NCBI RefSeq assembly: GCF_013315815.1 | Contig: NZ_CP046051.1 | Location: 1,889,501 to 1,953,500, forward strand | DNA: 64,000 bases | Source of the DNA: Caproicibacterium lactatifermentans | GTDB lineage: Bacteria > Bacillota > Clostridia > Oscillospirales > Acutalibacteraceae | Reading direction: 5' to 3' | In this document: positions 11,087 to 23,996 of the stretch, in pieces | How positions within the stretch are numbered: the first letter of the stretch is position 1 | How the letters are laid out: each line of letters opens with the position of its first letter | Position numbers and translations under genes: made by a program | Notes under the pieces: model-generated | Told to the model about the DNA's origin: nothing | The model's database searches: none | The model's input: only the letters and a program-made list of their open reading frames with translations

Positions 11087-12427
11087 TTATTTATGTTTGA
11101 ATATTTGTTTTACAGCATTCAGCTCTTCACGGCTTGGTACCAGCAGACGAACAAACGGTGTATGGGAGTATCTGCAAAAAATAACGATACTGGAAAGCCC
11201 CTGCACCGTCAGAGAAATAGAGGTGGACAGTGCCACGCCGTTAATGCCAAGCAACGGAATAAAAATCAGGCACGCTACACAGTTGGAAGCGACACCCAGC
11301 GCAGTGGGCAGGATATTAAGCTCCGGCCGACCGTAGGCAGCTATGGAATTGCCCAGCACCTTGGAATAGGAAATAAAGATGGAGCCGACAATGAGGTATG
11401 ACAGCGGTGCCAGCGCTCCCGTATACATTGGAAACAGCCACGGCACAAAAACATTTGCCATCCACAGAATCAGCAGTGCCGCCACCGTTGTTACATAGGT
11501 AACCATCTTCGTAGATATCAATGTTAGGTGCAGTTTGTCTTTCTGCTCACTCATAGCCGCAATGCGGCTCATAATGACCTGGCTGACCGCATCCGGCAGA
11601 ATCCACACCTGCTGCATAATGGTAAATGCCGTAGAGTAGACGCCAAGGTTTTTAATGCCAAACTTTCCTTGTACAATATAGGTACCGAGGAATGTATTGA
11701 TGTAGGTCAGGACGTTGCTGACATGGGCTTTCAGGCTGTACTTAATCATGGAGTTAGCCGGTACCGGATAATCATCGTCCGGTGCAGGCTTAGGCCGCGG
11801 ACCGTTCCAGCGGCGGATACACACTAGACCAAATACAATCATTCCGCAGGAAATGGCTACGGTTCCCCAAATCCAAATGCTTGCCGATGGTCGGAATGCA
11901 ATGTAAAGGGCTAAAATCATTGCCAAAATTCGCTGCAGCAGGTTAATCATATTAAAGGACTTAAACTTATTTTCACCGCGCAGCACACCGGTACACAGGT
12001 TCAGCACCAGGGAACTCAGCGCATAGACTACAATCGCCACCAAAAACGGCGACGGTGTCTTGTTGAAAAACGAACTTTTTCGCAGTGCAATCAAAATTGC
12101 CGTGCCAATAACCGCAATCACCACGAAAATGACTGCTCCCAGTTTTACAATGGGCTTCCGGGTATTTTCAATCTTATATCGCGCGACGAAATAAATAATA
12201 GAGGCCGCTACGCTTAACCCAATGATGGTATAAAAGCCGCCGCCCCAGTTCTGCACCGCATTGTAGTAACCTTTTATGGTTGGGTCCACCCGGCGAAGCA
12301 CTACAATAGAGGAAATGAGTGCCAGCACCGCACCAAATGCATTGGTTCCAAACGTGTTGAGAGAATCCCGCACCACATCGCTGTGAATTCTTCTGTCTTT
12401 TTTCTTCATATTGTCTTCATACTCCAT
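11087..12427 (-). CDS. Polysaccharide flippase (Wzx-like, MOP superfamily)
   Basis: 446-residue protein with about 12-14 membrane segments, of the oligosaccharide flippase group: the N-terminal DVVRDSLNTFGTNAFGAVLA amphipathic start and the ENKFKSFNMINLLQR and YIVQGKFGIKNLGVYSTA regions are typical of lipid-linked oligosaccharide exporters. ATG 12427 opens the frame but lacks a ribosome site; ATG 12409 (MKKKDRRIHSD) is ten bases after GGAG and may be the true start. It would move undecaprenyl-linked repeat units across the membrane for the polymerase encoded at 13270. It is on the opposite strand from the rest of the polysaccharide genes. Confidence 0.85.
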   Translation of the reverse strand: MEYEDNMKKKDRRIHSDVVRDSLNTFGTNAFGAVLALISSIVVLRRVDPTIKGYYNAVQNWGGGFYTIIGLSVAASIIYFVARYKIENTRKPIVKLGAVIFVVIAVIGTAILIALRKSSFFNKTPSPFLVAIVVYALSSLVLNLCTGVLRGENKFKSFNMINLLQRILAMILALYIAFRPSASIWIWGTVAISCGMIVFGLVCIRRWNGPRPKPAPDDDYPVPANSMIKYSLKAHVSNVLTYINTFLGTYIVQGKFGIKNLGVYSTAFTIMQQVWILPDAVSQVIMSRIAAMSEQKDKLHLTLISTKMVTYVTTVAALLILWMANVFVPWLFPMYTGALAPLSYLIVGSIFISYSKVLGNSIAAYGRPELNILPTALGVASNCVACLIFIPLLGINGVALSTSISLTVQGLSSIVIFCRYSHTPFVRLLVPSREELNAVKQIFKHK

Positions 12428-13193: not shown

Positions 13194-13222
13194 TTGTCAC
13201 TGAAAAGATTCCATGCTATAAT
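13194..13222 (+). promoter_or_regulatory. Promoter of the polysaccharide operon
   Basis: TTGTCA (13194-13199), 17-base spacer, TATAAT (13217-13222), about 48 bases before the polymerase start codon. The only convincing promoter seen for the 13.2-21.1 kb gene string. Confidence 0.8.
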
Positions 13223-13269
13223 AAGATAATTATAATATTTTGAACTTGAACAAAACAGGAGGTGGACCC

Positions 13270-14826
13270 ATGACAGCAGAACAGCTGAATGCGCGCAGCA
13301 CATGGCGCAATACGCTGCTGTTTGGCTCGGGCAGTATTCTTCTTATCCTGGCGAATCTGCTGCGGCTGTCCGGCAATTCGTACTCAACTGGTGCAGTATA
13401 TCTGCTTTTCGCCGCAAATGTCGCTCTAAATGTTGCTATTCTTTGGGACCTCTGCAGCCATATCCGGCGGGACTTCCCCATGCTGGTCTTTGTCATTTCC
13501 TTTGATATTCTGCTGCTGGGGCGTGTTTATATTGCTTTCTTGGCAAAGGACCCCGATTATCTGCTTTATAATTTGGAAGCGAATTCTTACGAAAATCTCT
13601 TTTCGGCGCTGCAGATTGTTACCTTCGCACTTCTTTTTGTCTACGCCGGGTACAAGCTGTCGGCACCGTTGTTTTTCCATCGGGAAAAAGCACTGGAAAA
13701 ACATGACCCCTCTGTATTCCACCGCAGCCAGCTTACACCACTGATTCGTCAAATCAGCATCATTATGCTGATTATCAGCTCGCTGGCATTTTTCTATGTC
13801 CTGCTGCAGAGCATTCTGGTTGTGCTGCGGTACGGGTACCTCGGTTCCTATACAAAAGACTTAGACAGAAGCGTGCCGTCGGTTATCAGCCGGCTTTCCA
13901 TGTTCTTTGTGCCGTCTTTTGCCGTATTTCTGGCCACGCTGCCGGACCGCTGCCAGCTGAGGCTGCCGCTTTTTGTTTACGGGATTTATATGCTCTCCTC
14001 CCTGATGACCGGCCGGCGCAACACTTTTGTCTGCGAAGCGCTGATGCTTTTGATTTACTTTTTCCTGCGGGACAGAATCATTCCGAAAGAACAGCGTATT
14101 TTCCAGAAAAAACACATTGTGCCGGTCCTCATTGTCATCGCATTGATGATATACTTCCTGGAGATGGTAGCAGAACGGCGCGCAGGTGGAAGCGGACACC
14201 GCAATTTGTTCACTGCCCTTTCTAATTTCCTGTATTCACAGGGAGCGACTTATCGGGTTGTTCAACAGATGGTCAACTATTGGGATTATTTTAACCACCA
14301 GACTTCCTGGCAGTTTTTGTTCTATCCCTGCACTGAATTTGTACACAACAACGGCCTGCTCAGTTCTATTTTGGGCCTTTCTTCCTTAACGAGCACTCAG
14401 AATATTCCGTATGTTATGACCAATTACAACTTTGGTCATGTGCTGACCTTTATGGCGGACCCGTCCCGGTACCTAAACGGCGGCGGCTTTGGGACCTCTT
14501 TTGTTGCAGAAGCCTACGTTTCTTTCGGCATGGCGGGCGTTGCCATCGTCAGCGGTTTCTTTGGTGTTGCGTTCCGTTTCTTTGCCACCATGCTCACCCG
14601 CTCCTGGCCAGTTCTTGCCCTTAGCTTAATTGCCATAAAGAACCTGGTTTATGTGCCTCGCAACTTTGCCTTATCCTGGGTTTTCAATGTATTCAGCATT
14701 ACCTACCTGCTTTACTTTATCCTCATTTATCTGGCGGCACTGCTGGTTTCCGGAATTGGCGCGCACCTGCGCCGGTCACGGGGCGGCATTGTTCCCTTCT
14801 CTGCAGGAGGTGCTGATCCCACTTGA
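13270..14826 (+). CDS. O-antigen/oligosaccharide repeat-unit polymerase-like membrane protein (Wzy-like)
   Basis: 518-residue protein with roughly 11-12 membrane segments and a large extracytoplasmic loop in the C-terminal half (about residues 300-420, containing GSGHRNLFTALSNFL), the topology of Wzy-type polymerases. Start ATG 13270 is preceded by AGGAGGTGG; an upstream in-frame TTG 13240 is rejected. It starts the polysaccharide operon and its last four bases overlap the TTG start of the next gene. Sequence identity of Wzy proteins is low, so the call rests on topology and on the neighbouring flippase, glycosyltransferases and Wzz-like genes. Confidence 0.75.
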   Translation: MTAEQLNARSTWRNTLLFGSGSILLILANLLRLSGNSYSTGAVYLLFAANVALNVAILWDLCSHIRRDFPMLVFVISFDILLLGRVYIAFLAKDPDYLLYNLEANSYENLFSALQIVTFALLFVYAGYKLSAPLFFHREKALEKHDPSVFHRSQLTPLIRQISIIMLIISSLAFFYVLLQSILVVLRYGYLGSYTKDLDRSVPSVISRLSMFFVPSFAVFLATLPDRCQLRLPLFVYGIYMLSSLMTGRRNTFVCEALMLLIYFFLRDRIIPKEQRIFQKKHIVPVLIVIALMIYFLEMVAERRAGGSGHRNLFTALSNFLYSQGATYRVVQQMVNYWDYFNHQTSWQFLFYPCTEFVHNNGLLSSILGLSSLTSTQNIPYVMTNYNFGHVLTFMADPSRYLNGGGFGTSFVAEAYVSFGMAGVAIVSGFFGVAFRFFATMLTRSWPVLALSLIAIKNLVYVPRNFALSWVFNVFSITYLLYFILIYLAALLVSGIGAHLRRSRGGIVPFSAGGADPT

Positions 14827-16052
14827 AGCTATTAATTCTGCTGACGACTTCTTTTCCGTTGGGCAGCGGAGAGGATTTTATCCCCGCCGAGCTGGCGCGG
14901 GCTTTCGGTTTTGACCGTATTCTGGTCTGCCCGTGCAGCCCGCAGAAAGGTGCGGTACAGACAAAGTCTCTGCCGGAAGGCTGCGAGCTGGTGCAGCTGC
15001 CGCGCCGCAGCCTTGGCCGATCCGCTTATATGCGTCTGCTGCTGCGTTCCGATGTGCGGGCTGAAATTTCCCTGCTGGCAAAGGAAGGGCAGTTAAACGG
15101 AGAGCGCACGCATGAGTTATTGTTTTTCGCGAAAAACGCGGTAGAAATTGCCGCGGCACTGACAGAAACAATTTCCGTTCGGCCGGGTGACGAAGTGGTG
15201 CTGTACAGCTACTGGCTGTACGACGCGGCGGCGGCCGGCGTGCGTTTTGCCGACTCACTGCGGAAACAGGGCGTCACGGTTCGTCAAATTTCCCGTGCTC
15301 ATGGGTTTGATATTCACCCGGAACGGCGAAAAAGCGGCTACCTGCCCATGCGCCGCTATCTGTTCCATCATCTTGACCGCATCTGTCCCTGTTCAGAGGA
15401 CGGCGCGGTGGTCCTGCGGCAACAGGCAGGCCCGGACGCCGGAAAAATCGCCTGTGCCTACCTCGGCACAAACGACAACGGCATTGGGCAGCACAGTCGG
15501 GAGCCTTTTCGCCTGCTGTCCTGTTCCTATCTGGTTCCAGTTAAGCGGATTCATCTTTTGATTGCCGCGCTGCAGCAGACCGATTTTCCTGTTGTCTGGA
15601 CGCACATCGGCTCTGGTCCGCTGGAAAACGAACTGCAGGCAGAGGCTGAAAAACTGCCTCCAAATGTCACCGTTCAGTTCCTCGGGCAGAAAACGAACGC
15701 GGAAGTTCTGGCCTATTACCGGGAACATGCGGTATCTGTGTTTGTCAATGTCAGTTCCAGTGAGGGAATTCCTGTAACCATTATGGAGGCCGCTTCTTTC
15801 GGCACACCGGTGGTCGCCACCGATGTCGGCGGCACTCATGAAATTGTAAAAAACGGGGAAAACGGGTTCCTCCTGCCGGCGGACTTTACACCGCAGGCAC
15901 TGCTGGCCGCTCTGCAGAAAATGCGGAATATGGACGCGGAAGCCTATGACGGATTTTGCCGCAATGCCCGTAAAATCTGGGCGGAAAAATTCAGTGCAGA
16001 AAAAAATTACCATGCATTTTATTCGGCCTTGAATGGTGGGAATACATTATGA
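14823..16052 (+). CDS. Glycosyltransferase family 4 protein
   Basis: 409-residue GT-B enzyme. Translation appears to begin at TTG 14823, overlapping the polymerase stop (TTGA), with GGAGG twelve bases upstream. C-terminal nucleotide-sugar domain is intact: VPVKRIHLLIAAL, HIGSGPLENEL, VTVQFLGQKTNAEVLAYY and the E-x7-E motif in SSSEGIPVTIMEAASFGTPV (about residues 315-335), followed by GTHEIVKNGENGFLL. The retaining GT4 signature is therefore present, unlike in the two divergent glycosyltransferases downstream. Donor and acceptor unknown; expected to add a sugar to the lipid-linked repeat unit in the cytoplasm. Confidence 0.88.
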   Translation: MKLLILLTTSFPLGSGEDFIPAELARAFGFDRILVCPCSPQKGAVQTKSLPEGCELVQLPRRSLGRSAYMRLLLRSDVRAEISLLAKEGQLNGERTHELLFFAKNAVEIAAALTETISVRPGDEVVLYSYWLYDAAAAGVRFADSLRKQGVTVRQISRAHGFDIHPERRKSGYLPMRRYLFHHLDRICPCSEDGAVVLRQQAGPDAGKIACAYLGTNDNGIGQHSREPFRLLSCSYLVPVKRIHLLIAALQQTDFPVVWTHIGSGPLENELQAEAEKLPPNVTVQFLGQKTNAEVLAYYREHAVSVFVNVSSSEGIPVTIMEAASFGTPVVATDVGGTHEIVKNGENGFLLPADFTPQALLAALQKMRNMDAEAYDGFCRNARKIWAEKFSAEKNYHAFYSALNGGNTL

Positions 16053-17236
16053 AATTTCTATATGTAAGCAATGTCAGCAAAGCAAAACAATATGCTGGCA
16101 TCCTCAAAAAAGTCGCCGGACAGACAGAGGGCGTTGCCCAGCTGGGCTGGGAAGCGCACTATACCTGCGTAGATGGCAGCAGCGTTTTGCTTTGCAGTGC
16201 GGACGGCAGCAAGCTACAGCGGAAGGATTTCCCTTCCGGCCTGCGCTGGCACGAACAGCAGCAGTCCATTGCCCGGTGCATCAGTGAATTTGCCGCGGAC
16301 GGCTGCTATGATGCCGTATACATTAAAGGCTTTCTGGCAAATCCCTATGCGCTACAGACGGCGGCTTCTGCAAAGAATGTGAACCCTGCCTGCCGCGTTA
16401 TTTTTGAGATTGCCACTTACCCCTATTGGGGTGAGTACAAGCGCTTTCTGCATGTGGACCTGCAGAAAAAAGACCGGCGCTCAATGGCCGGTCATTTGCT
16501 GGAAATTTGGCAGCACGCCACCACTGTACCGCATATGAAACAGTATGTAGATGCACTGGCTGTTTTCGGCGCACCGATTTCCCGTTTGTGGGGAATTCCG
16601 GCCATTACCATTGACAATGGCGTAGCAGTCGGCAAAATTGCTCCAAAACAGGTCAGCAGCTCCGACGGCACCATTCGCCTGCTGGGTGTAGCGGGAACCT
16701 CCGTTGCGCACGGCTATTCCCGTGTGCTGGAAGGATTGGCACAGTATAAAAAGGAAAAAGCACCGCAGGACCCGGAAGTCTGCTTTGAAATCGTCGGTGC
16801 AAATGAGACGATTGAAGCCATGAAGGCCCGTGCGGAATCACTTTCCCTCGGCAGTTCCTCTGCCTTTCTCGGTTATAAAAACGCGAAGGAACTTTCCGTT
16901 CTTTACAACCAGTGTGACGCGGCGGTTTCCTCCCTGGGCGTTTATCAGATTGGCCTGACATGGCTGTCACCCCTGAAATCACGCGAATACTGTGCCGCCG
17001 GCATTCCCTTCCTGTATGCTTATGAGGATACCCTGCCGAAAGATGTAGCATTTGCGATGAAAATTCCAAATGACTCTTCCCCGGTAAACATTGCCGCCGT
17101 GGTCCGCTTTGTCGAGCGCTGCCGACAGAATCCAGACATCTCCCGGCAGGAAAGGCAGTACGCGGCTGACCACTTCGACTGGAAAATCATTATGGAAAAG
17201 GTGCTCCGCTTTGCGGGCGCCGCGGATAAATCTTAA
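16049..17236 (+). CDS. Divergent GT-B glycosyltransferase, copy 1 of a duplicated pair
   Basis: 395 residues; ATG 16049 overlaps the preceding stop (ATGA). The C-terminal half has GT-B features: RLLGVAGTSVAHGYSRVLEG, EIVGANETIEAMK, SAFLGYKNAKELSVLYNQCD and LKSREYCAAGIPFLYAYED, corresponding to the donor-binding region of GT4-like enzymes. The last ~60 residues (NDSSPVNIAAVVRFV through KIIMEKVLRFAGAADKS) are closely matched by the gene at 18670, showing common origin, while the N-terminal acceptor domains differ strongly. It is followed 19 bases later by its Wzz-like partner. Confidence 0.78.
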   Translation: MKFLYVSNVSKAKQYAGILKKVAGQTEGVAQLGWEAHYTCVDGSSVLLCSADGSKLQRKDFPSGLRWHEQQQSIARCISEFAADGCYDAVYIKGFLANPYALQTAASAKNVNPACRVIFEIATYPYWGEYKRFLHVDLQKKDRRSMAGHLLEIWQHATTVPHMKQYVDALAVFGAPISRLWGIPAITIDNGVAVGKIAPKQVSSSDGTIRLLGVAGTSVAHGYSRVLEGLAQYKKEKAPQDPEVCFEIVGANETIEAMKARAESLSLGSSSAFLGYKNAKELSVLYNQCDAAVSSLGVYQIGLTWLSPLKSREYCAAGIPFLYAYEDTLPKDVAFAMKIPNDSSPVNIAAVVRFVERCRQNPDISRQERQYAADHFDWKIIMEKVLRFAGAADKS

Positions 17237-17255
17237 ACAATAAGGAGGCCCCACA

Positions 17256-18512
17256 ATGGAGCTGTATGCAAGTTTTTCTGACGTCATGCATTTCTTTAAG
17301 CGAAACTGGGTCAAATTTCTTCTGGTCATCCTTCTGTTTGGTGTTGTGTGTGGATTGCTTCCCCTAAAGCTGGCCAAGTACACTTATACCACCAACAGCA
17401 CCCTGACTATCAACTGCCAGCTGCCAGGAAATGCTTCCACTGATTTTCGTGAGCAGTACACCGGCATTCTCTACAACCGTGTGCAGTCCGTTCTGGTACA
17501 GTCCAATTCCAACAGCCTTGTGGAAAAAACGACCCAGCGTCTTGGCCTGAAAAAGGGCGAAATCAGCAAGATTACCGGTGAACAGATGAGAAGTGCGCCG
17601 GCCGTAAAGCTGACCGTGCAGACCACCAACGCGGACATGGCCGCAAAAATTGCCGACACTGCCGCCGATATTCTGGGAGAAGAAGTAGTTCAGCGGTTCC
17701 CCTCGCCGAAGCTTTCCGCTTTCATCAGCGATAGGGCAGTTCTGGTCGTCAGCCACTCCAAAAAATCTGCTATGATAAAATCCGGCATTCTGGGCCTTGC
17801 CTTTGGTTTTATTGTCTTCCTCTGTTACGGACTTATCCGTGTTCTTTCCAACCACTCTATCCGCAGCGGCAAAGGTTCTGCCGAACTGGTCGGCGCCAAA
17901 TGCCTGGGTGAGATTCCACACGGTGACGGCAGAAAACAGGCGGATGCTTTCCGTGAACTGCGCACTGTGCTGCTGAACCAGACAAAAACTTCCAGGAGCC
18001 TGCTGATAGAGGACACCGGAAAGGACAGCGGTGCACCGCAGACCGCAGCTGGTCTTGCAGTTTCTTTGGCCCAAGCCGGACGCCGTGTTTTGGCTGTGGA
18101 CGCTGACCTGCGCAGCCCACAGATGGCTGACCTTTTGGGCGTAAAGCCCGCACAGAACCTGCGGGACGTTCTGATAGGCCGCAGTACCCTGGCAGAAGCC
18201 GCAGAGGCGGTTCCGGATCATGACGGTCTGTTCCTTCTGGCAGGTGCTTCTGGAAAAGACGACCCAGCTGACCTTTTGGCCCGCAGTTTTCCCGCCGTGC
18301 TGAAGGAAGCTGAAACGCAGTATGACAGTGTGATTATCTGCGCGCCGTCCCAGCCGGACTACCCGGACGCAGACAGCATTGCCGCCTTCCCGCAGGCCGT
18401 CCTTTGCACTGCAAAATATGGACAGACCTCCTTTTCCACAGCACGCAGCGCTGTCAGCGCTTCCGCAGACGTCGGCGGCAAAGTGGCTGGTTTTGTCGTA
18501 GTAGGCGCCTGA
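17256..18512 (+). CDS. Wzz/BY-kinase-like polysaccharide co-polymerase with degenerate ATPase site, copy 1
   Basis: 418 residues: membrane segments near 19-37 and 172-192 flank a ~130-residue extracytoplasmic Wzz domain; a cytoplasmic CpsD/BY-kinase-like domain follows with AFRELRTVLLN (about 228-240). The Walker A region (about 247-268) reads TGKDSGAPQTAAGLA, so the catalytic GKS/T is absent; Walker A' VLAVDADLRSP (278-288) is kept; Walker B reads VIICAPS (about 358) with Asp replaced by Cys. There is no C-terminal tyrosine cluster. It probably controls chain length or scaffolds the polymerase, but should not autophosphorylate. Start ATG 17256 has AAGGAGG. Confidence 0.8.
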   Translation: MELYASFSDVMHFFKRNWVKFLLVILLFGVVCGLLPLKLAKYTYTTNSTLTINCQLPGNASTDFREQYTGILYNRVQSVLVQSNSNSLVEKTTQRLGLKKGEISKITGEQMRSAPAVKLTVQTTNADMAAKIADTAADILGEEVVQRFPSPKLSAFISDRAVLVVSHSKKSAMIKSGILGLAFGFIVFLCYGLIRVLSNHSIRSGKGSAELVGAKCLGEIPHGDGRKQADAFRELRTVLLNQTKTSRSLLIEDTGKDSGAPQTAAGLAVSLAQAGRRVLAVDADLRSPQMADLLGVKPAQNLRDVLIGRSTLAEAAEAVPDHDGLFLLAGASGKDDPADLLARSFPAVLKEAETQYDSVIICAPSQPDYPDADSIAAFPQAVLCTAKYGQTSFSTARSAVSASADVGGKVAGFVVVGA

Positions 18513-18669
18513 CTGCAGCCAACTTGCCTTCCCTAGTTACACAAGGAGTTTGTTCCCCTGCGGCACCACCGAAGGAACGGGCAGGAAACTCTGCAGTTAA
18601 GGTTCCAAAACAACAGGCAGTTCTTTCCCTGCAGAGAAAACGATAAAGGCTTTACGAGGAGATCAGCAA

Positions 18670-19872
18670 ATGGAACTCATGTATCTAACTTTTCAGGAAG
18701 ATGCCCTTCTCTATGTCGGCGTCACCCGTAAGATACGTTCACAGGTCCACGCCTTCCAGCAGTTGGGGTATCATGTTACCTACTCCCTTTGGAAAGGCTG
18801 TGAATACCGCTTTGTTACAGAAAACGGGACTCAAATAAAAAAGCTTACCGGCGGCAGCGGAATGATGCATCAGCTTGCGGATGCTGCAAAAGAGTATTTG
18901 TCGCAGCATTCCTTTGACGTTTTGTACATGAGGTTGGACCGCATCAGTTTTGATGTTCTGGAAATCTGCAGAATTACGCGCCGGAACGGCACTAGACGCA
19001 TTATTATCGAGCTGCCAAATTACCCCTATATTGCGGACTACATCAGCAGCGTCGACCATGTGCATCCTCTGACAAAGCGTGTTTCCGCCAAAGCCCATGT
19101 CCTTGCCTTTGCCGCGGAGGACCGTCTTTCCGCCTTGGGACTGAAAGGGCTTGTGGATGCCGTTGCCCTGATTGGCAACCCAAGCGACCATTTCTTTGGT
19201 GTAAAGGCAATCAATATCAGCAATGGGATTGATGTGAATGCCATGAAGCCGGTGCCACTGAAGTCCAGCCCGGACGAAATTGTTTTGATTGGAGTGGCAG
19301 GTACTCTTTGGTGGCAGGCATATGACCGCATTCTGGAAGGGATGTATCGCTATAAAAAGGCGGAACCACACCGCAAACCGCATATTCGGTTTATCATGGT
19401 GGGCGGCGACCCCAAGGAAATGCCGGACTTCCGTGCGCAAATCAGGAAATACGGCCTGCAGGAAGATGTGGAATGCCCCGGCTTTAAAACGGGAAAAGAG
19501 TTGGAAAACCTATACGCAAGGGCTGACCTTGGGGTTTCCAAACTGGGCTGCTACCGGCGGGGCCTGCAGGCCTGCTCTTCCCTAAAGGCACGCGAATACT
19601 GCGCGCAGGGTCTGCCTTTCATCTACACCTGTGAGGATTCCCTGGAAAAGGGAAACTCCGCTTTTGCCCTGCAGGTACCAAATGACCCTTCCCCCGTAGA
19701 TATGAATATGGTCGTCAAATTTGTGCTGAACTGTCGGCAGCATCCGGAAATTACTGCCCAGGAACGTCAGTTTGCCATGGACCATTTTGATTGGAAAATG
19801 ATTATGGAAAAGGTACTCCGCTTTGCGGGTGTTGCCGATGACTCAAACCATAAGGAGGACCCACACCAATGA
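18670..19872 (+). CDS. Divergent GT-B glycosyltransferase, copy 2 of a duplicated pair
   Basis: 400 residues, ATG 18670 behind GAGGAG. The C-terminal half parallels the enzyme at 16049: LIGVAGTLWWQAYDRILEGM, VECPGFKTGKELENLYARAD, SLKAREYCAQGLPFIYTCED, NDPSPVDMNMVVKFVLNCRQ and KMIMEKVLRFAGVADDS. The N-terminal half (MELMYLTFQEDALLYVGVTR) differs, suggesting a different acceptor. A 157-base gap (18513-18669) separates it from the first module; I see only a possible CTCTGCAG/CTGCAGAG inverted repeat there. Its stop overlaps the start of the next Wzz-like gene (ATGA). Confidence 0.78.
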   Translation: MELMYLTFQEDALLYVGVTRKIRSQVHAFQQLGYHVTYSLWKGCEYRFVTENGTQIKKLTGGSGMMHQLADAAKEYLSQHSFDVLYMRLDRISFDVLEICRITRRNGTRRIIIELPNYPYIADYISSVDHVHPLTKRVSAKAHVLAFAAEDRLSALGLKGLVDAVALIGNPSDHFFGVKAINISNGIDVNAMKPVPLKSSPDEIVLIGVAGTLWWQAYDRILEGMYRYKKAEPHRKPHIRFIMVGGDPKEMPDFRAQIRKYGLQEDVECPGFKTGKELENLYARADLGVSKLGCYRRGLQACSSLKAREYCAQGLPFIYTCEDSLEKGNSAFALQVPNDPSPVDMNMVVKFVLNCRQHPEITAQERQFAMDHFDWKMIMEKVLRFAGVADDSNHKEDPHQ

Positions 19873-21119
19873 AGCCGTATTTTCGCTTTTCGGATGTTTT
19901 ACATTTTTACAAACGAAACTGGATAAAGTTTCTGCTGGTTGTTTTGCTGTGCGGCGTTTTGTGTGCCCTACTGCCACTGAAGCTGCACTCCATGTCCAGC
20001 ACAGTCAACACCACCATTATGCTGAACTGCGAGCTTCCGGAAAACGCCAGCTCAGACTACCGCCTGCAGTACAACGGCATTGTCAGCTATCGGATAACTT
20101 CCGCCGTGGCGCAGGCCAGCTCCCATGACCTGATTGAAAAGACAACCAAACGTCTTGGCCTGCAGGAAGGGGAAATCCTCAAAATTACCGGTGAGCAGCA
20201 GCAGGGCGCACCGGCCGTGAAACTGACACTGGAAACAACAAACGCCGACATGGCCGAGAAGATTTCTGATACAGCTGCGGAGATTTTGTGCGACGAACTG
20301 GTTCAGCAGTATCCGTCGCCGAAGCTGACCGCTTTCATCAGCGACCCGGCCGCGGATATGCCGGAAACCCCCAAACTTGCCACAACAATCAAGGCCGGTG
20401 TCCTCGGCCTGGTGCTTGGTTTTATTCTGTTTGTATGCTATGGATTTATCCGTGTCCTTTCCCGCCGTTCTGTGTGTGACGGTAAAAAGGCCGCCGCCCT
20501 GCTGGGTGTGAAATGTCTGGGTGAAATCCCGCACGGTGACGGCAAACAGGCGGACGCTTTCCGCCGAATCCGCACCGTTCTGCTGAATCAGGCAGAACCT
20601 GCAAACAGTCTTCTGATAGAAGGCGCCAAGGACGGCGGCACCGCGCAAACCGCGGTGGGCCTTGCTGTTTCTCTGTCACAAGCCGGCCGCCGTGTGCTGG
20701 CGATAGATGCTGACCTGCGCAACCCGCAGATGGCCGGCCTGCTGGGCGTCAGCCCGACACAGAACCTGCGTGATGTTTTAGCTGGCCGCTGCACAATGGC
20801 AGAAGCCGTTGCAGCCGTGCCGAATCAGGATGGCCTGTTTCTGCTGGCCGGTGCAGCCGGTGATGAAAATCCGGCTGACCTGCTGGCCCGCAGTTTTCCC
20901 GCCGTACTAAAAGCGGCTGAAAGCAAATATGACAACATCATTATCTGTGCGCCATCTCAGCTGGATTACCCAGACGCAGACAGTATCGCCGCCTGCCCGC
21001 AAGCTGTCCTGCTCACTGCAAAATACAATGTGACGTCTTACAAAACCATGAACCGTGTTTTGCAGCGCACCGCCGGTGTCGGCGGCAAAACCGGCGGCTT
21101 CATTGTAATGGATGCATAA
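19869..21119 (+). CDS. Wzz/BY-kinase-like polysaccharide co-polymerase with degenerate ATPase site, copy 2
   Basis: 416 residues, clearly paralogous to the protein at 17256 along its whole length. Membrane segments near 19-37 and 171-193. The Walker A region (about 247-262) reads GAKDGGTAQTAVGLA, again lacking the GKS/T lysine; Walker A' VLAIDADLRNP is retained; Walker B is IIICAPS, without the Asp; no tyrosine tail. Start ATG 19869 overlaps the glycosyltransferase stop and has AAGGAGG upstream. Both copies share the same lost residues, so the loss pre-dates the duplication and the fold has been kept. Confidence 0.8.
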   Translation: MKPYFRFSDVLHFYKRNWIKFLLVVLLCGVLCALLPLKLHSMSSTVNTTIMLNCELPENASSDYRLQYNGIVSYRITSAVAQASSHDLIEKTTKRLGLQEGEILKITGEQQQGAPAVKLTLETTNADMAEKISDTAAEILCDELVQQYPSPKLTAFISDPAADMPETPKLATTIKAGVLGLVLGFILFVCYGFIRVLSRRSVCDGKKAAALLGVKCLGEIPHGDGKQADAFRRIRTVLLNQAEPANSLLIEGAKDGGTAQTAVGLAVSLSQAGRRVLAIDADLRNPQMAGLLGVSPTQNLRDVLAGRCTMAEAVAAVPNQDGLFLLAGAAGDENPADLLARSFPAVLKAAESKYDNIIICAPSQLDYPDADSIAACPQAVLLTAKYNVTSYKTMNRVLQRTAGVGGKTGGFIVMDA

Positions 21120-21143
21120 AGGACCTTCCACAGAATACACAGA

Positions 21144-21184
21144 CATCCGCAGAAAGGTTTCACGTTTTCTGCGGATGTTTTTTC
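21144..21184 (+). terminator. Intrinsic terminator closing the polysaccharide operon
   Basis: Stem CATCCGCAGAAA (21144-21155) with TTTTCTGCGGATG (21165-21177), followed by TTTTTT. Confidence 0.9.
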
Positions 21185-21277
21185 TGGCTTTCTTCGTCAA
21201 TATCCAGTATAATAAACTGCAATCAGACAAATTTCTGCTTTTCCGGCGGCAGCAGAGCCGCCGAACTGGAGGTATCT

Positions 21278-21940
21278 ATGGACTCTAAAAAGAAGACACT
21301 GCACCTGGGACGTACCACAAAACTGCTGCTTCTGACCGCAGCCATCACTGCTGGTATCGTATCCCTATTGTTTATCAACATCGGCCGTGCTTCCCGCAGC
21401 GGCAGCAGCCAGCCGCAGGTAACCAGCACGGTTGTAAAAGAAAAGGTACTCGGAATTCAGGAGCTTTCCACGGTTAAATATATGTACACCAATGTCGGGA
21501 AATTTTCACAATCCAATGCTCTTTACGGCTACACCGTTCCTTTTACTACCAAAAGTTTTTTGATTACCTATGATGGTACGATTAAGGCCGGACTGGATTT
21601 AAGCGCTGTACAGGTGCAGGTTTCGGACAACGCCGTCACCCTCACCCTGCCGCAGGCAAAAGTCCTGTCCCATGAAATTGATGAGAACAGCATTGAGGTT
21701 TACGATGAAACAAACAATATTTTTAACCCCATTCATGTAAAAGACTACACGACCTTCGCCGCAGGGGAAAAACACAAAATGGAGCAGAAAGCCGCCCAGC
21801 AGGGCCTTCTAAAAGAGGCTGATGCAAAGGCAAAAACCAGCCTGACACAGCTTTTGCAGGCAACAGCTGGAAACCGTAAAATTGCCTTCCGCCAGCAGTC
21901 CACGTCCTCTGCGTCGTCGGCCGCGTCCAGCAAAAAATAA
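21278..21940 (+). CDS. DUF4230 domain membrane-anchored protein
   Basis: 220 residues. A basic N-terminus and membrane segment (about residues 13-33) anchor an extracytoplasmic domain with the DUF4230 pattern: VVKEKVLGIQELSTVKYMYT, SFLITYDGTIKAGLDLS, TLTLPQAKVLSHEIDENSI and NIFNPIHVKDY. The C-terminus ends in a serine/alanine-rich tail. Start ATG 21278 is preceded by CTGGAGG. The family's function is unknown. It directly follows the polysaccharide operon terminator and has its own TATAAT near 21210, so a link to polysaccharide assembly is only positional. Confidence 0.85.
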   Translation: MDSKKKTLHLGRTTKLLLLTAAITAGIVSLLFINIGRASRSGSSQPQVTSTVVKEKVLGIQELSTVKYMYTNVGKFSQSNALYGYTVPFTTKSFLITYDGTIKAGLDLSAVQVQVSDNAVTLTLPQAKVLSHEIDENSIEVYDETNNIFNPIHVKDYTTFAAGEKHKMEQKAAQQGLLKEADAKAKTSLTQLLQATAGNRKIAFRQQSTSSASSAASSKK

Positions 21941-23300: not shown

Positions 23301-23996
23301 ATGGAAACCGATAAAGAAAATAATCCGGAATTTGTCGAACACGCGCAGTCGAATACGTCGGATCAACAGGCCGGGAACTGCACCTGTGGTCAGCCGAACC
23401 CACAGGGCACACCGGGCCAGCAGGCCGGGAACTGCACCTGTGGTCAGCCGAACCCACAGGGCACACCGGGCCAGCAGGCCGGGAACTGCACCTGCGGTCA
23501 GCCGAACCCACAGGGCACACCGGACCAGCAGGCCGGGAACTGCACCTGCGGTCAGCCGAACCCACAGGGCACACCGGACCAGCAGGCCGGGAACTGCACC
23601 TGCGGTCAGCCAAACCCACAGGACAGATATCACCCGCCCTACACTTACGGCGGACAATTCAATGGTACCATGGTCAACAAACCGCAGTTTCCCTTCGGAC
23701 AAGTTGGCCGGCCGTTTGGTTATTTTGACGGCTGTTTTATACCGGGTAGTGCCACACCTATCCGCAGCCGTACCGCAACTGCCGTTCTCTGCCTGCTTTT
23801 GGGTCCATTCGGCATTCATAAATTCTATACCGGCCAGTGGGGCTGGGGCCTTGTTTCGCTGTTCCTGCTGATAACCCTCGGCTGGACCGGCTGGATATGG
23901 GGCATTCTCTACGCTGTTTCGCTTGCTGAATCTATTTTGCTTTTTACCATGTCCAATGAGGAATTCCAGAATAAATATCATATGCGGGCACAGTAG
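23301..23996 (+). CDS. TM2 domain protein with N-terminal Cys-Thr-Cys tandem repeats
   Basis: 231 residues from ATG 23301 (GAAAGGAG upstream). Residues about 22-108 are five copies of an 18-residue unit around QQAGNCTCGQPNPQGTP, each with a C-T-C motif (ten cysteines in all). After a Pro/Tyr/Gly-rich linker come a TM2 domain (about 153-215; LLGPFGIHKFYTGQWGWG, two membrane helices with the Asp-free GPFGIHKFY turn) and a short tail. TM2 domains are small two-helix membrane modules of unclear function, found with many N-terminal additions. The repeats differ from each other at few bases, suggesting recent expansion. Confidence 0.85.
   Translation: METDKENNPEFVEHAQSNTSDQQAGNCTCGQPNPQGTPGQQAGNCTCGQPNPQGTPGQQAGNCTCGQPNPQGTPDQQAGNCTCGQPNPQGTPDQQAGNCTCGQPNPQDRYHPPYTYGGQFNGTMVNKPQFPFGQVGRPFGYFDGCFIPGSATPIRSRTATAVLCLLLGPFGIHKFYTGQWGWGLVSLFLLITLGWTGWIWGILYAVSLAESILLFTMSNEEFQNKYHMRAQ
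23364..23625 (+). repeat. Five tandem 54-bp in-frame direct repeats
   Basis: Units begin at 23364, 23418, 23472, 23526 and 23580 (exact 54-base period, last unit truncated). They are nearly identical, differing mainly at third positions and at a Gly/Asp codon between units. Contained entirely in the TM2 protein gene; repeat number is likely to vary between strains by slippage or recombination. Confidence 0.95.

Follow-up and report, generated by a model that had tools for sequence, protein, structure and literature searches.

The question raised by this locus is whether two polysaccharide co-polymerases (PCPs) that carry a bacterial tyrosine kinase (BY-kinase) domain have lost catalysis and, if so, what the domain is kept for. 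The two proteins, PCP1 and PCP2, are encoded in a 64,000-nucleotide stretch of the Caproicibacterium lactatifermentans genome (contig NZ_CP046051.1, positions 1,889,501 to 1,953,500 of the forward strand), which is referred to as the window and whose numbering is used throughout. The original prediction, made from the sequence alone, held that both proteins retain a Wzz architecture and have lost the catalytic residues of the kinase, and took this to suggest an adapted non-catalytic role. Our analysis indicates that PCP1 and PCP2 are probably PCP-2-type co-polymerases with a BY pseudokinase domain, which likely form a membrane ring beside the cognate Wzy polymerase and set polymerisation without ATP-driven tyrosine phosphorylation, the dead domain serving as an assembly ring or scaffold.

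Both open reading frames (ORFs) were confirmed as originally called, and their products are 65% identical. Hydropathy placed two hydrophobic helices (approximately residues 16-42 and 171-199) around a small extracytoplasmic part, and similarity to BY-kinases begins at approximately residue 225 in both proteins. The predicted two-helix Wzz architecture agrees with this profile and with the TIGR01006 model, which matched all 11 PCP members searched at an E value of 0.001. TIGR03029 matched PCP1 and PCP2 at E values of 1.2e-23 and 2.2e-25, under its curated cut-off, and the matches of both proteins to the NCBIfam kinase models were likewise all below the curated cut-offs. By sequence and profile alignment, both proteins could be aligned to the solved chains of Wzc, CapB, Etk and BceF, with the best profile match to Wzc (E 8.6e-26; entries such as 7nhr). 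The AFR segment and the Walker A′ motif were found as predicted, in the form of DAFRxxR and VDADLR or IDADLR. The sequences thus contain what defines a PCP-2 protein, namely two membrane helices that flank an extracytoplasmic Wzz-type part, together with a BY-kinase-fold domain. In the 24 genome loci of the main clade, as the group of close homologs of PCP1 and PCP2 is called here, these parts always occur in a single fused reading frame of 414-467 amino acids and not as a stand-alone pseudokinase.

In the profile alignments, the column of Wzc Lys540 is occupied by A260 in PCP1 and T258 in PCP2, the Ser/Thr site that follows the Walker A lysine by P and A, respectively, and the column of Wzc Asp642 by C362 and C360. 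No GK(S/T) lies at the site where GEGKST was expected, and IICAPS replaces IIDTPP with no aspartate at the site, exactly as had been read from the sequence. Both chains also terminate at the point where a tyrosine tail would start, which bears out its predicted absence. A search of the domain for a replacement lysine, conserved in the clade and absent from canonical kinases, found none among 42 main-clade rows. In the open state of Wzc, K540 of Walker A forms a salt bridge with D642 of Walker B (excerpted text of PMC8517177), so PCP1 and PCP2 have lost both sides of that switch. The original prediction also drew support from the identical loss in both copies. The loss in both copies stands, but their agreement provides no independent support because the copies are sisters from a tandem duplication.

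Conservation of the loss was judged on homologs. Searches covered the protein database, the genus (11 genomes), the family (398 genomes from a larger group) and an order-wide sample (345 genomes); each protein-database search scored no more than 8000 candidates, and one of them is covered by 120 of its 124 matches. The motif counts cover 62 main-clade rows, to which the window contributes 2, genome loci 24 and the protein database 36; the rows fall into 55 clusters below 90% identity, and some database rows are the same proteins as genome rows. P0001, which is identical to PCP2, and P0059, which is without the domain, were left out. The Walker A lysine was present in 0 of 62 rows and the Walker B aspartate in 0 of 61 (one row is truncated), so the loss is conserved across the clade. 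The residues at the lysine site were G in 32 rows, A in 21, E in 4, T in 3 and Q and H in 1 each, and those at the aspartate site were Y in 26, C in 12, S in 9, H in 7, V in 4, N in 2 and F in 1. Since the replacements vary, no new residue has been fixed at either site. The chains end almost uniformly: 52 of the 62 stop at the column of the last PCP1 residue, 8 extend one residue further, 1 extends two and 1 (the frameshifted P0009) extends eleven, and a tyrosine was found within the last 15 residues in only 1 of 62. The RxxR of the ring-interface motif was kept in all 62 rows. In the 42-row set used for the trees, in which the Lys and Asp columns drift freely, Arg233 and Arg236 are invariant (42/42) and make up two of only six domain columns with that property. 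By sequence profile, the clade therefore holds a homolog of the BY-kinase fold that is without catalytic residues or tyrosine tail and is conserved as such in orthologs, i.e., a BY pseudokinase.

For comparison, 106 other BY-kinase-like rows (105 database matches and the CpsD of the window's genome) were scored in the same way, and the lysine was present in 96 and the aspartate in 103, a contrast with the main clade that is not attributable to chance. Ten of these rows depart at the Lys or Asp site, and an eleventh has a gap at the Asp column; such loss is thus not unique to the main clade. Two proteins outside the clade, P0018 and P0133, have lost both the Walker A lysine and the Walker B aspartate, apparently independently.

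The searches delimit a distinct clade. In the family, matches at E 1e-40 or better came from 29 of the 398 genomes, in 8 of 135 genera, and by the motif table 23 of these genomes (five genera) carry the doubly dead main-clade form and 6 (three genera) carry a form in which the lysine is replaced by arginine. In the genus, a main-clade protein was found in 7 of 11 genomes at E 5.2e-86 or better and was not found in G008 and G009 (99% complete) or in G004 and G005 (partial), and main-clade genomes total 25. The order-wide sample gave two matches at E 1e-40, both from the same family. Named members are Caproicibacter fermentans, Caproiciproducens galactitolivorans, Caproiciproducens faecalis and Anaeromassilibacillus sp. 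An200, with several assemblies labelled 'Ruminococcaceae' or 'Oscillospiraceae' as further members; Caproicibacter and Caproiciproducens belong to the Acutalibacteraceae (Clostridia, Bacillota). A scan of genome contigs with one protein as query gave no match, and the scan with the alignment as query gave 20 loci. One of the 20, L141 from Pseudoalteromonas (29% identity across 94 residues), does not belong to the clade.

The dead domain is under purifying selection. Ratios of nonsynonymous to synonymous substitution rates (dN/dS, Nei-Gojobori method) were computed for the 22 closest pairs listed, 18 of them main-clade pairs. For the pseudokinase part, 17 main-clade pairs yielded a ratio (one was saturated), and these ratios were 0.06-0.19; the Wzz part gave 0.03-0.13. 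The pairs are not mutually independent, and in many of them synonymous sites are saturated (proportion of synonymous differences above 0.6); L084/L086, the main-clade pair with the least saturation (dS 0.54), gave 0.06 for the pseudokinase part. Random decay was rejected on the basis of the low dN/dS and a loss pattern that spans the clade. Taken with the missing GK(S/T) and Asp and the sharing of the loss among homologs, the low dN/dS makes a retained non-catalytic role well supported, and the original proposal of an adapted role is upheld at this point.

That proposal had left the role itself open among scaffolding, chain-length control and other regulation, and the gene neighborhood favors a co-polymerase or scaffold. 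All 24 main-clade loci that were fetched have a Wzy homolog, 38-74% identical to that of the window, upstream of the PCP gene, on the same strand and within 4 kb. It adjoins the PCP gene in 5 loci (L078, L080-L083), and glycosyltransferase genes of the cassette lie between the two in the other 19. A Wzx homolog is found inside the cassette, between Wzy and PCP, in 4 of the 24 loci (L079, L084-L086). The Wzy and Wzx homologs together place the system in a Wzx/Wzy pathway. The window itself likewise has a Wzy gene within 4 kb of a pseudokinase PCP. The Wzy family PF14296 occurs in 42 of the 398 family genomes, including all 23 main-clade genomes. Outside these cassettes there are 24 further PF14296 matches, 17 of which were fetched, and 0 of the 17 had a PCP of the main-clade kind nearby; in 14 of the 17 loci the best ORF match to the window's Wzy was at 21-28% identity, the other 3 had no such ORF, and one of the 17 (L157) has a CpsD-like neighbor. 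No Wzy homolog was found at the 6 loci of the Lys-to-Arg relatives, of which L087 and L092 are on short contigs of 9.9 and 5.0 kb.

When 33 genomes were searched with TIGR01007 (E 1e-12), a BY-kinase passed the family cut-off in 4 of the 25 main-clade genomes (G000, G006, G212 and G221), and G197 had a fragment. No other BY-kinase was detected at this threshold in the remaining 20, of which 13 are at least 97% complete. The non-PCP matches that remain in those 20 are frames that align solely from model position 7 onward and are presumably MinD/ParA-type ATPases. A separate kinase that passes the cut-off occurs in all 6 genomes with the Lys-to-Arg form. Among the four main-clade genomes with such a kinase is that of the window, which at C1:791 kb encodes in a row a Wzz protein, an intact CpsD (GKS and DTPP present, seven tyrosines among the final 30 residues) and a phosphatase of the CpsB/CapC type (PF19567, E 1.2e-26).

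How such a machine might work can be outlined from canonical PCP-2 machines, which are held to cycle between an octamer and phosphorylated monomers; in the same work, non-phosphorylated Wzc K540M was a homogeneous octamer (PMC8285477, in the excerpted text). PCP1 and PCP2 would form a ring in the membrane next to the cognate Wzy, and the ring would set Wzy polymerisation, affecting either chain length or processivity. The machine would have no ATP-driven tyrosine-phosphorylation cycle. The kinase domain would be kept as a cytoplasmic assembly ring or scaffold, consistent with the invariant arginines of ExxRxxR where Lys, Asp and the tyrosine tail are gone. Several observations weigh against this proposal. 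PF02706 (Wzz) matched only 3 of 11 PCP members at E 0.01, and 7 of the 20 genomes without another BY-kinase are less than 97% complete. At the Glu position of ExxRxxR, the 42 rows carry Asp (31 rows), Asn (7), Glu (3) or His (1). Half of the CapB octamer interface is formed by the EX2RX2R motif and the other half by the tyrosine cluster (PMC3795738, in the excerpt available); as the latter half is missing here, it is uncertain that a cytoplasmic ring would be stable. Retention of the Walker A′ DxD (47 of 62 rows) goes beyond the apparent needs of a pure scaffold, and genomic linkage to Wzy does not prove contact.

The persistence of Walker A′ (DxDxR is kept in 36 of 62 rows) despite the loss of Lys and Asp would fit a non-catalytic domain that still binds a ligand (an Mg-free nucleotide, a nucleotide-sugar or a protein) through Walker A′ and a remodelled P-loop and so acts as an allosteric sensor for the polymerase. 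Gly259, which precedes the Lys site, is also kept in 32 of 42 rows, and 40 of 42 have Gly266 at a column that is Asn in 12 of 13 canonical rows. However, Walker A′ is degraded in L078-L086 while the Wzy linkage is still kept there, and no Lys or Arg of the domain resembles a substitute for the lost lysine, so that we regard a ligand sensor as rather unlikely. It is still less probable that the domain is a vestige under relaxed constraint and that the Wzz part alone does the work. Most of the pairs listed do show a larger dN/dS for the dead domain than for the Wzz part, the columns of the Lys, the Ser/Thr and the Asp vary freely, and one database protein, P0059 (242 amino acids), does without the domain. 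The domain values nevertheless stay low, RxxR is kept in all 62 rows, and none of the 24 main-clade loci that were fetched is without the domain, although a full-length model was used to find these loci.

Two further explanations involve kinase activity, and both appear very improbable. The pseudokinase could act in trans on an active BY-kinase, as eukaryotic pseudokinase partners do, and the intact CapA-CpsD-CpsB set at C1:791 kb would be the target in the window's genome. With no such kinase detected in 20 of the 25 main-clade genomes at the threshold used, partnering of this kind was rejected as a general role. Least credible of all is a kinase that remains active by a non-canonical mechanism with a relocated lysine. 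PCP1 has K256 near the P-loop (TGKDSG), but this residue is not conserved, no conserved domain-specific lysine lies near the site, and the tyrosine tail is gone. A relocated catalytic lysine was looked for in the domain and not found. Best supported is a phosphorylation-independent co-polymerase for the linked Wzy, in which the pseudokinase would serve as a scaffold.

BY pseudokinases as such have been described. According to the excerpted text of PMC12004946, EcpK works with the PCP-2 protein EpsV in Myxococcus xanthus and HfsB with HfsA in Caulobacter. As there described, EcpK and HfsB resemble PCP1 and PCP2 in having a BY-kinase fold without catalytic residues or tyrosine tail, in belonging to Wzx/Wzy pathways and in being proposed as phosphorylation-free scaffolds; going by the same descriptions, they differ in being stand-alone and Gram-negative, and EcpK is also without Walker A′, whereas PCP1 and PCP2 are fused, from the Bacillota, and of a clade that has mostly kept it. 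Fused Gram-negative PCP-2 variants, e.g., SMc01795 of Sinorhizobium meliloti (Cuthbertson et al., as cited in the excerpt of PMC12004946), likewise have the PCP part and a BY pseudokinase in one chain and, compared by description only, differ in being Gram-negative. CapA/CapB of Staphylococcus aureus (PCP-2b) is also a Bacillota co-polymerase with a BY-kinase domain that aligns to solved chains, but it is split into two proteins and has the catalytic lysine K55 and a tyrosine cluster. Canonical fused BY-kinases (Wzc; P0014-P0017 and P0060 onward) match the clade over the full length (hhalign profile-profile comparison, probability 100, E 3.7e-40, columns 5-417) and differ in that the catalytic residues are present, with Tyr-rich tails in P0014-P0017. 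Among the titles and abstract openings listed from openly licensed PMC papers, no Gram-positive or fused Bacillota BY pseudokinase was found; the nearest was CapB1, a separate protein that is inactive in vitro yet binds ADP-Mg (PMC3795738, in the excerpt). A search for literature on Caproiciproducens exopolysaccharide found nothing pertinent among the papers listed. Since EcpK, HfsB and the fused Gram-negative variants are published, only the natively fused variant in the Acutalibacteraceae is new here.

The history of the clade was examined in trees built from alignments with the motif columns removed, with 42 main-clade rows. The main clade occupies one side of a branch with a support of 93 in the Shimodaira-Hasegawa-like approximate likelihood ratio test, and 100/100 when six long rows (P0018, P0020, P0023, P0090, P0113 and P0133) are dropped to leave a 60-row tree. 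In that tree, PCP1 and PCP2 are sisters (100/96), and the Lys-to-Arg relatives L087-L092 lie between the canonical and dead forms. These relatives, from genera g8, g13 and g112, are fused BY-kinase-like proteins of the same architecture and bacterial family that differ from the main clade in having exchanged only Lys for Arg, with the Walker B Asp and Walker A′ intact and a short tail with one or two tyrosines. L092 (KDGRT, Asp kept, short Tyr-Tyr tail) is nearest the canonical side, on a long branch, and is followed by five KEGRS/QEGRA proteins whose short tail has one Tyr; the fork that joins these five to the main clade has a support of only 90/75. The order is as ordered erosion would give. 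The placement depends on sampling, as inclusion of the six long rows joins the Lys-to-Arg group to the canonical side through open forks, and the order is then not shown. Tentatively, and with somewhat less than even confidence, it may be proposed that one Bacillota lineage converted its co-polymerase stepwise to a phosphorylation-free machine, by Lys-to-Arg exchange and shortening of the Tyr tail, then by loss of Lys and Asp, and then by erosion of Walker A′ in one subclade (L078-L086), with the ring-interface arginines fixed and with this protein, in most genomes seen, as the only BY-kinase-like one. Such a series would suggest that the cytoplasmic ring, and not the phospho-cycle, is the indispensable part of PCP-2.

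The two copies in the window are the product of tandem duplication and not of independent losses or convergence. When the two units were compared, DNA identity was 37-51% up to approximately position 16875, then 57-76% over twelve segments of at most 120 bases, and 49% over the last 83 bases. The duplicated tract thus begins within a glycosyltransferase gene. Given the jump in identity, the second unit looks like a tandem copy of the PCP gene and the 3′ end of the glycosyltransferase gene, joined to a different glycosyltransferase; the GTa and GTb proteins are 36.6% identical. The tract 16876-21119 looks like a cassette exchange, by which one operon might make two glycan variants.

The features of the locus are listed in the table below. 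The 61-nucleotide stretch 21130-21190, which contains the terminator-like hairpin, had a predicted folding energy of -26.7 kcal/mol (z -7.2), and the hairpin is absent from the site list of the consensus scan. Downstream of it, a DUF4230 protein (21278-21940; PF14014, E 3.8e-32) had no homolog at E 1e-6 among 30 other loci. A small protein at 23301-23996 has a tandem repeat that includes Cys (54-bp unit, 4.9 copies, 97% match) and a hydrophobic part close to its end.

Table. Features of the PCP1-PCP2 operon and its surroundings (window coordinates).
Feature	Coordinates	Strand	Remarks
Wzx-type flippase candidate	11087..12427	-	PF01943 E 5.6e-10
Promoter-like site	13194..13222	+	TTGTCA-17-TATAAT, TG before second hexamer; consensus scan 11/12; upstream of operon; sequence match alone
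Wzy polymerase (O-ag_pol_Wzy)	13240..14826	+	PF14296 E 5.4e-70
GT4 glycosyltransferase	14823..16052	+	PF00534 E 4.8e-27
GTa glycosyltransferase	16049..17236	+	PF00534 E 1.2e-6; directly precedes PCP1
PCP1, Wzz-type co-polymerase fused to BY pseudokinase, 418 aa	17256..18512	+	
PCP1 DAFRELR, ExxRxxR-type ring-interface motif, residues 230-236	17943..17963	+	
PCP1 degenerate Walker A, residues 253-268	18012..18059	+	Lys site is A260 (18033-18035)
PCP1 intact Walker A′ AVDADLR, residues 280-286	18093..18113	+	
PCP1 degenerate Walker B IICAPS, residues 360-365	18333..18350	+	Asp site is C362
GTb glycosyltransferase	18670..19872	+	PF13692 E 2e-8; 4-base overlap with PCP2 start
PCP2, Wzz-type co-polymerase fused to BY pseudokinase, 416 aa	19869..21119	+	
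PCP2 DAFRRIR, residues 229-235	20553..20573	+	
PCP2 degenerate Walker A, residues 252-266	20622..20666	+	Lys site is T258
PCP2 intact Walker A′ AIDADLR, residues 278-284	20700..20720	+	
PCP2 degenerate Walker B IICAPS, residues 358-363	20940..20957	+	Asp site is C360
Terminator-like hairpin into T run, operon end	21141..21180	+	3′ of PCP2

One practical consequence concerns annotation. P0003, which is identical to the protein of G006, bears the NCBI name 'CpsD/CapB family tyrosine-protein kinase', and because the catalytic residues are absent this label is misleading for the pseudokinase PCP family. In the accepted model, a PCP-2 protein needs cycles of tyrosine phosphorylation and disassembly of the ring. 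A clade without catalysis, in which the domain is under selection and linked to a polymerase, offers a natural experiment on the purpose of the phospho-cycle, and the named strains in which it can be approached include Caproiciproducens galactitolivorans and Caproicibacter fermentans.

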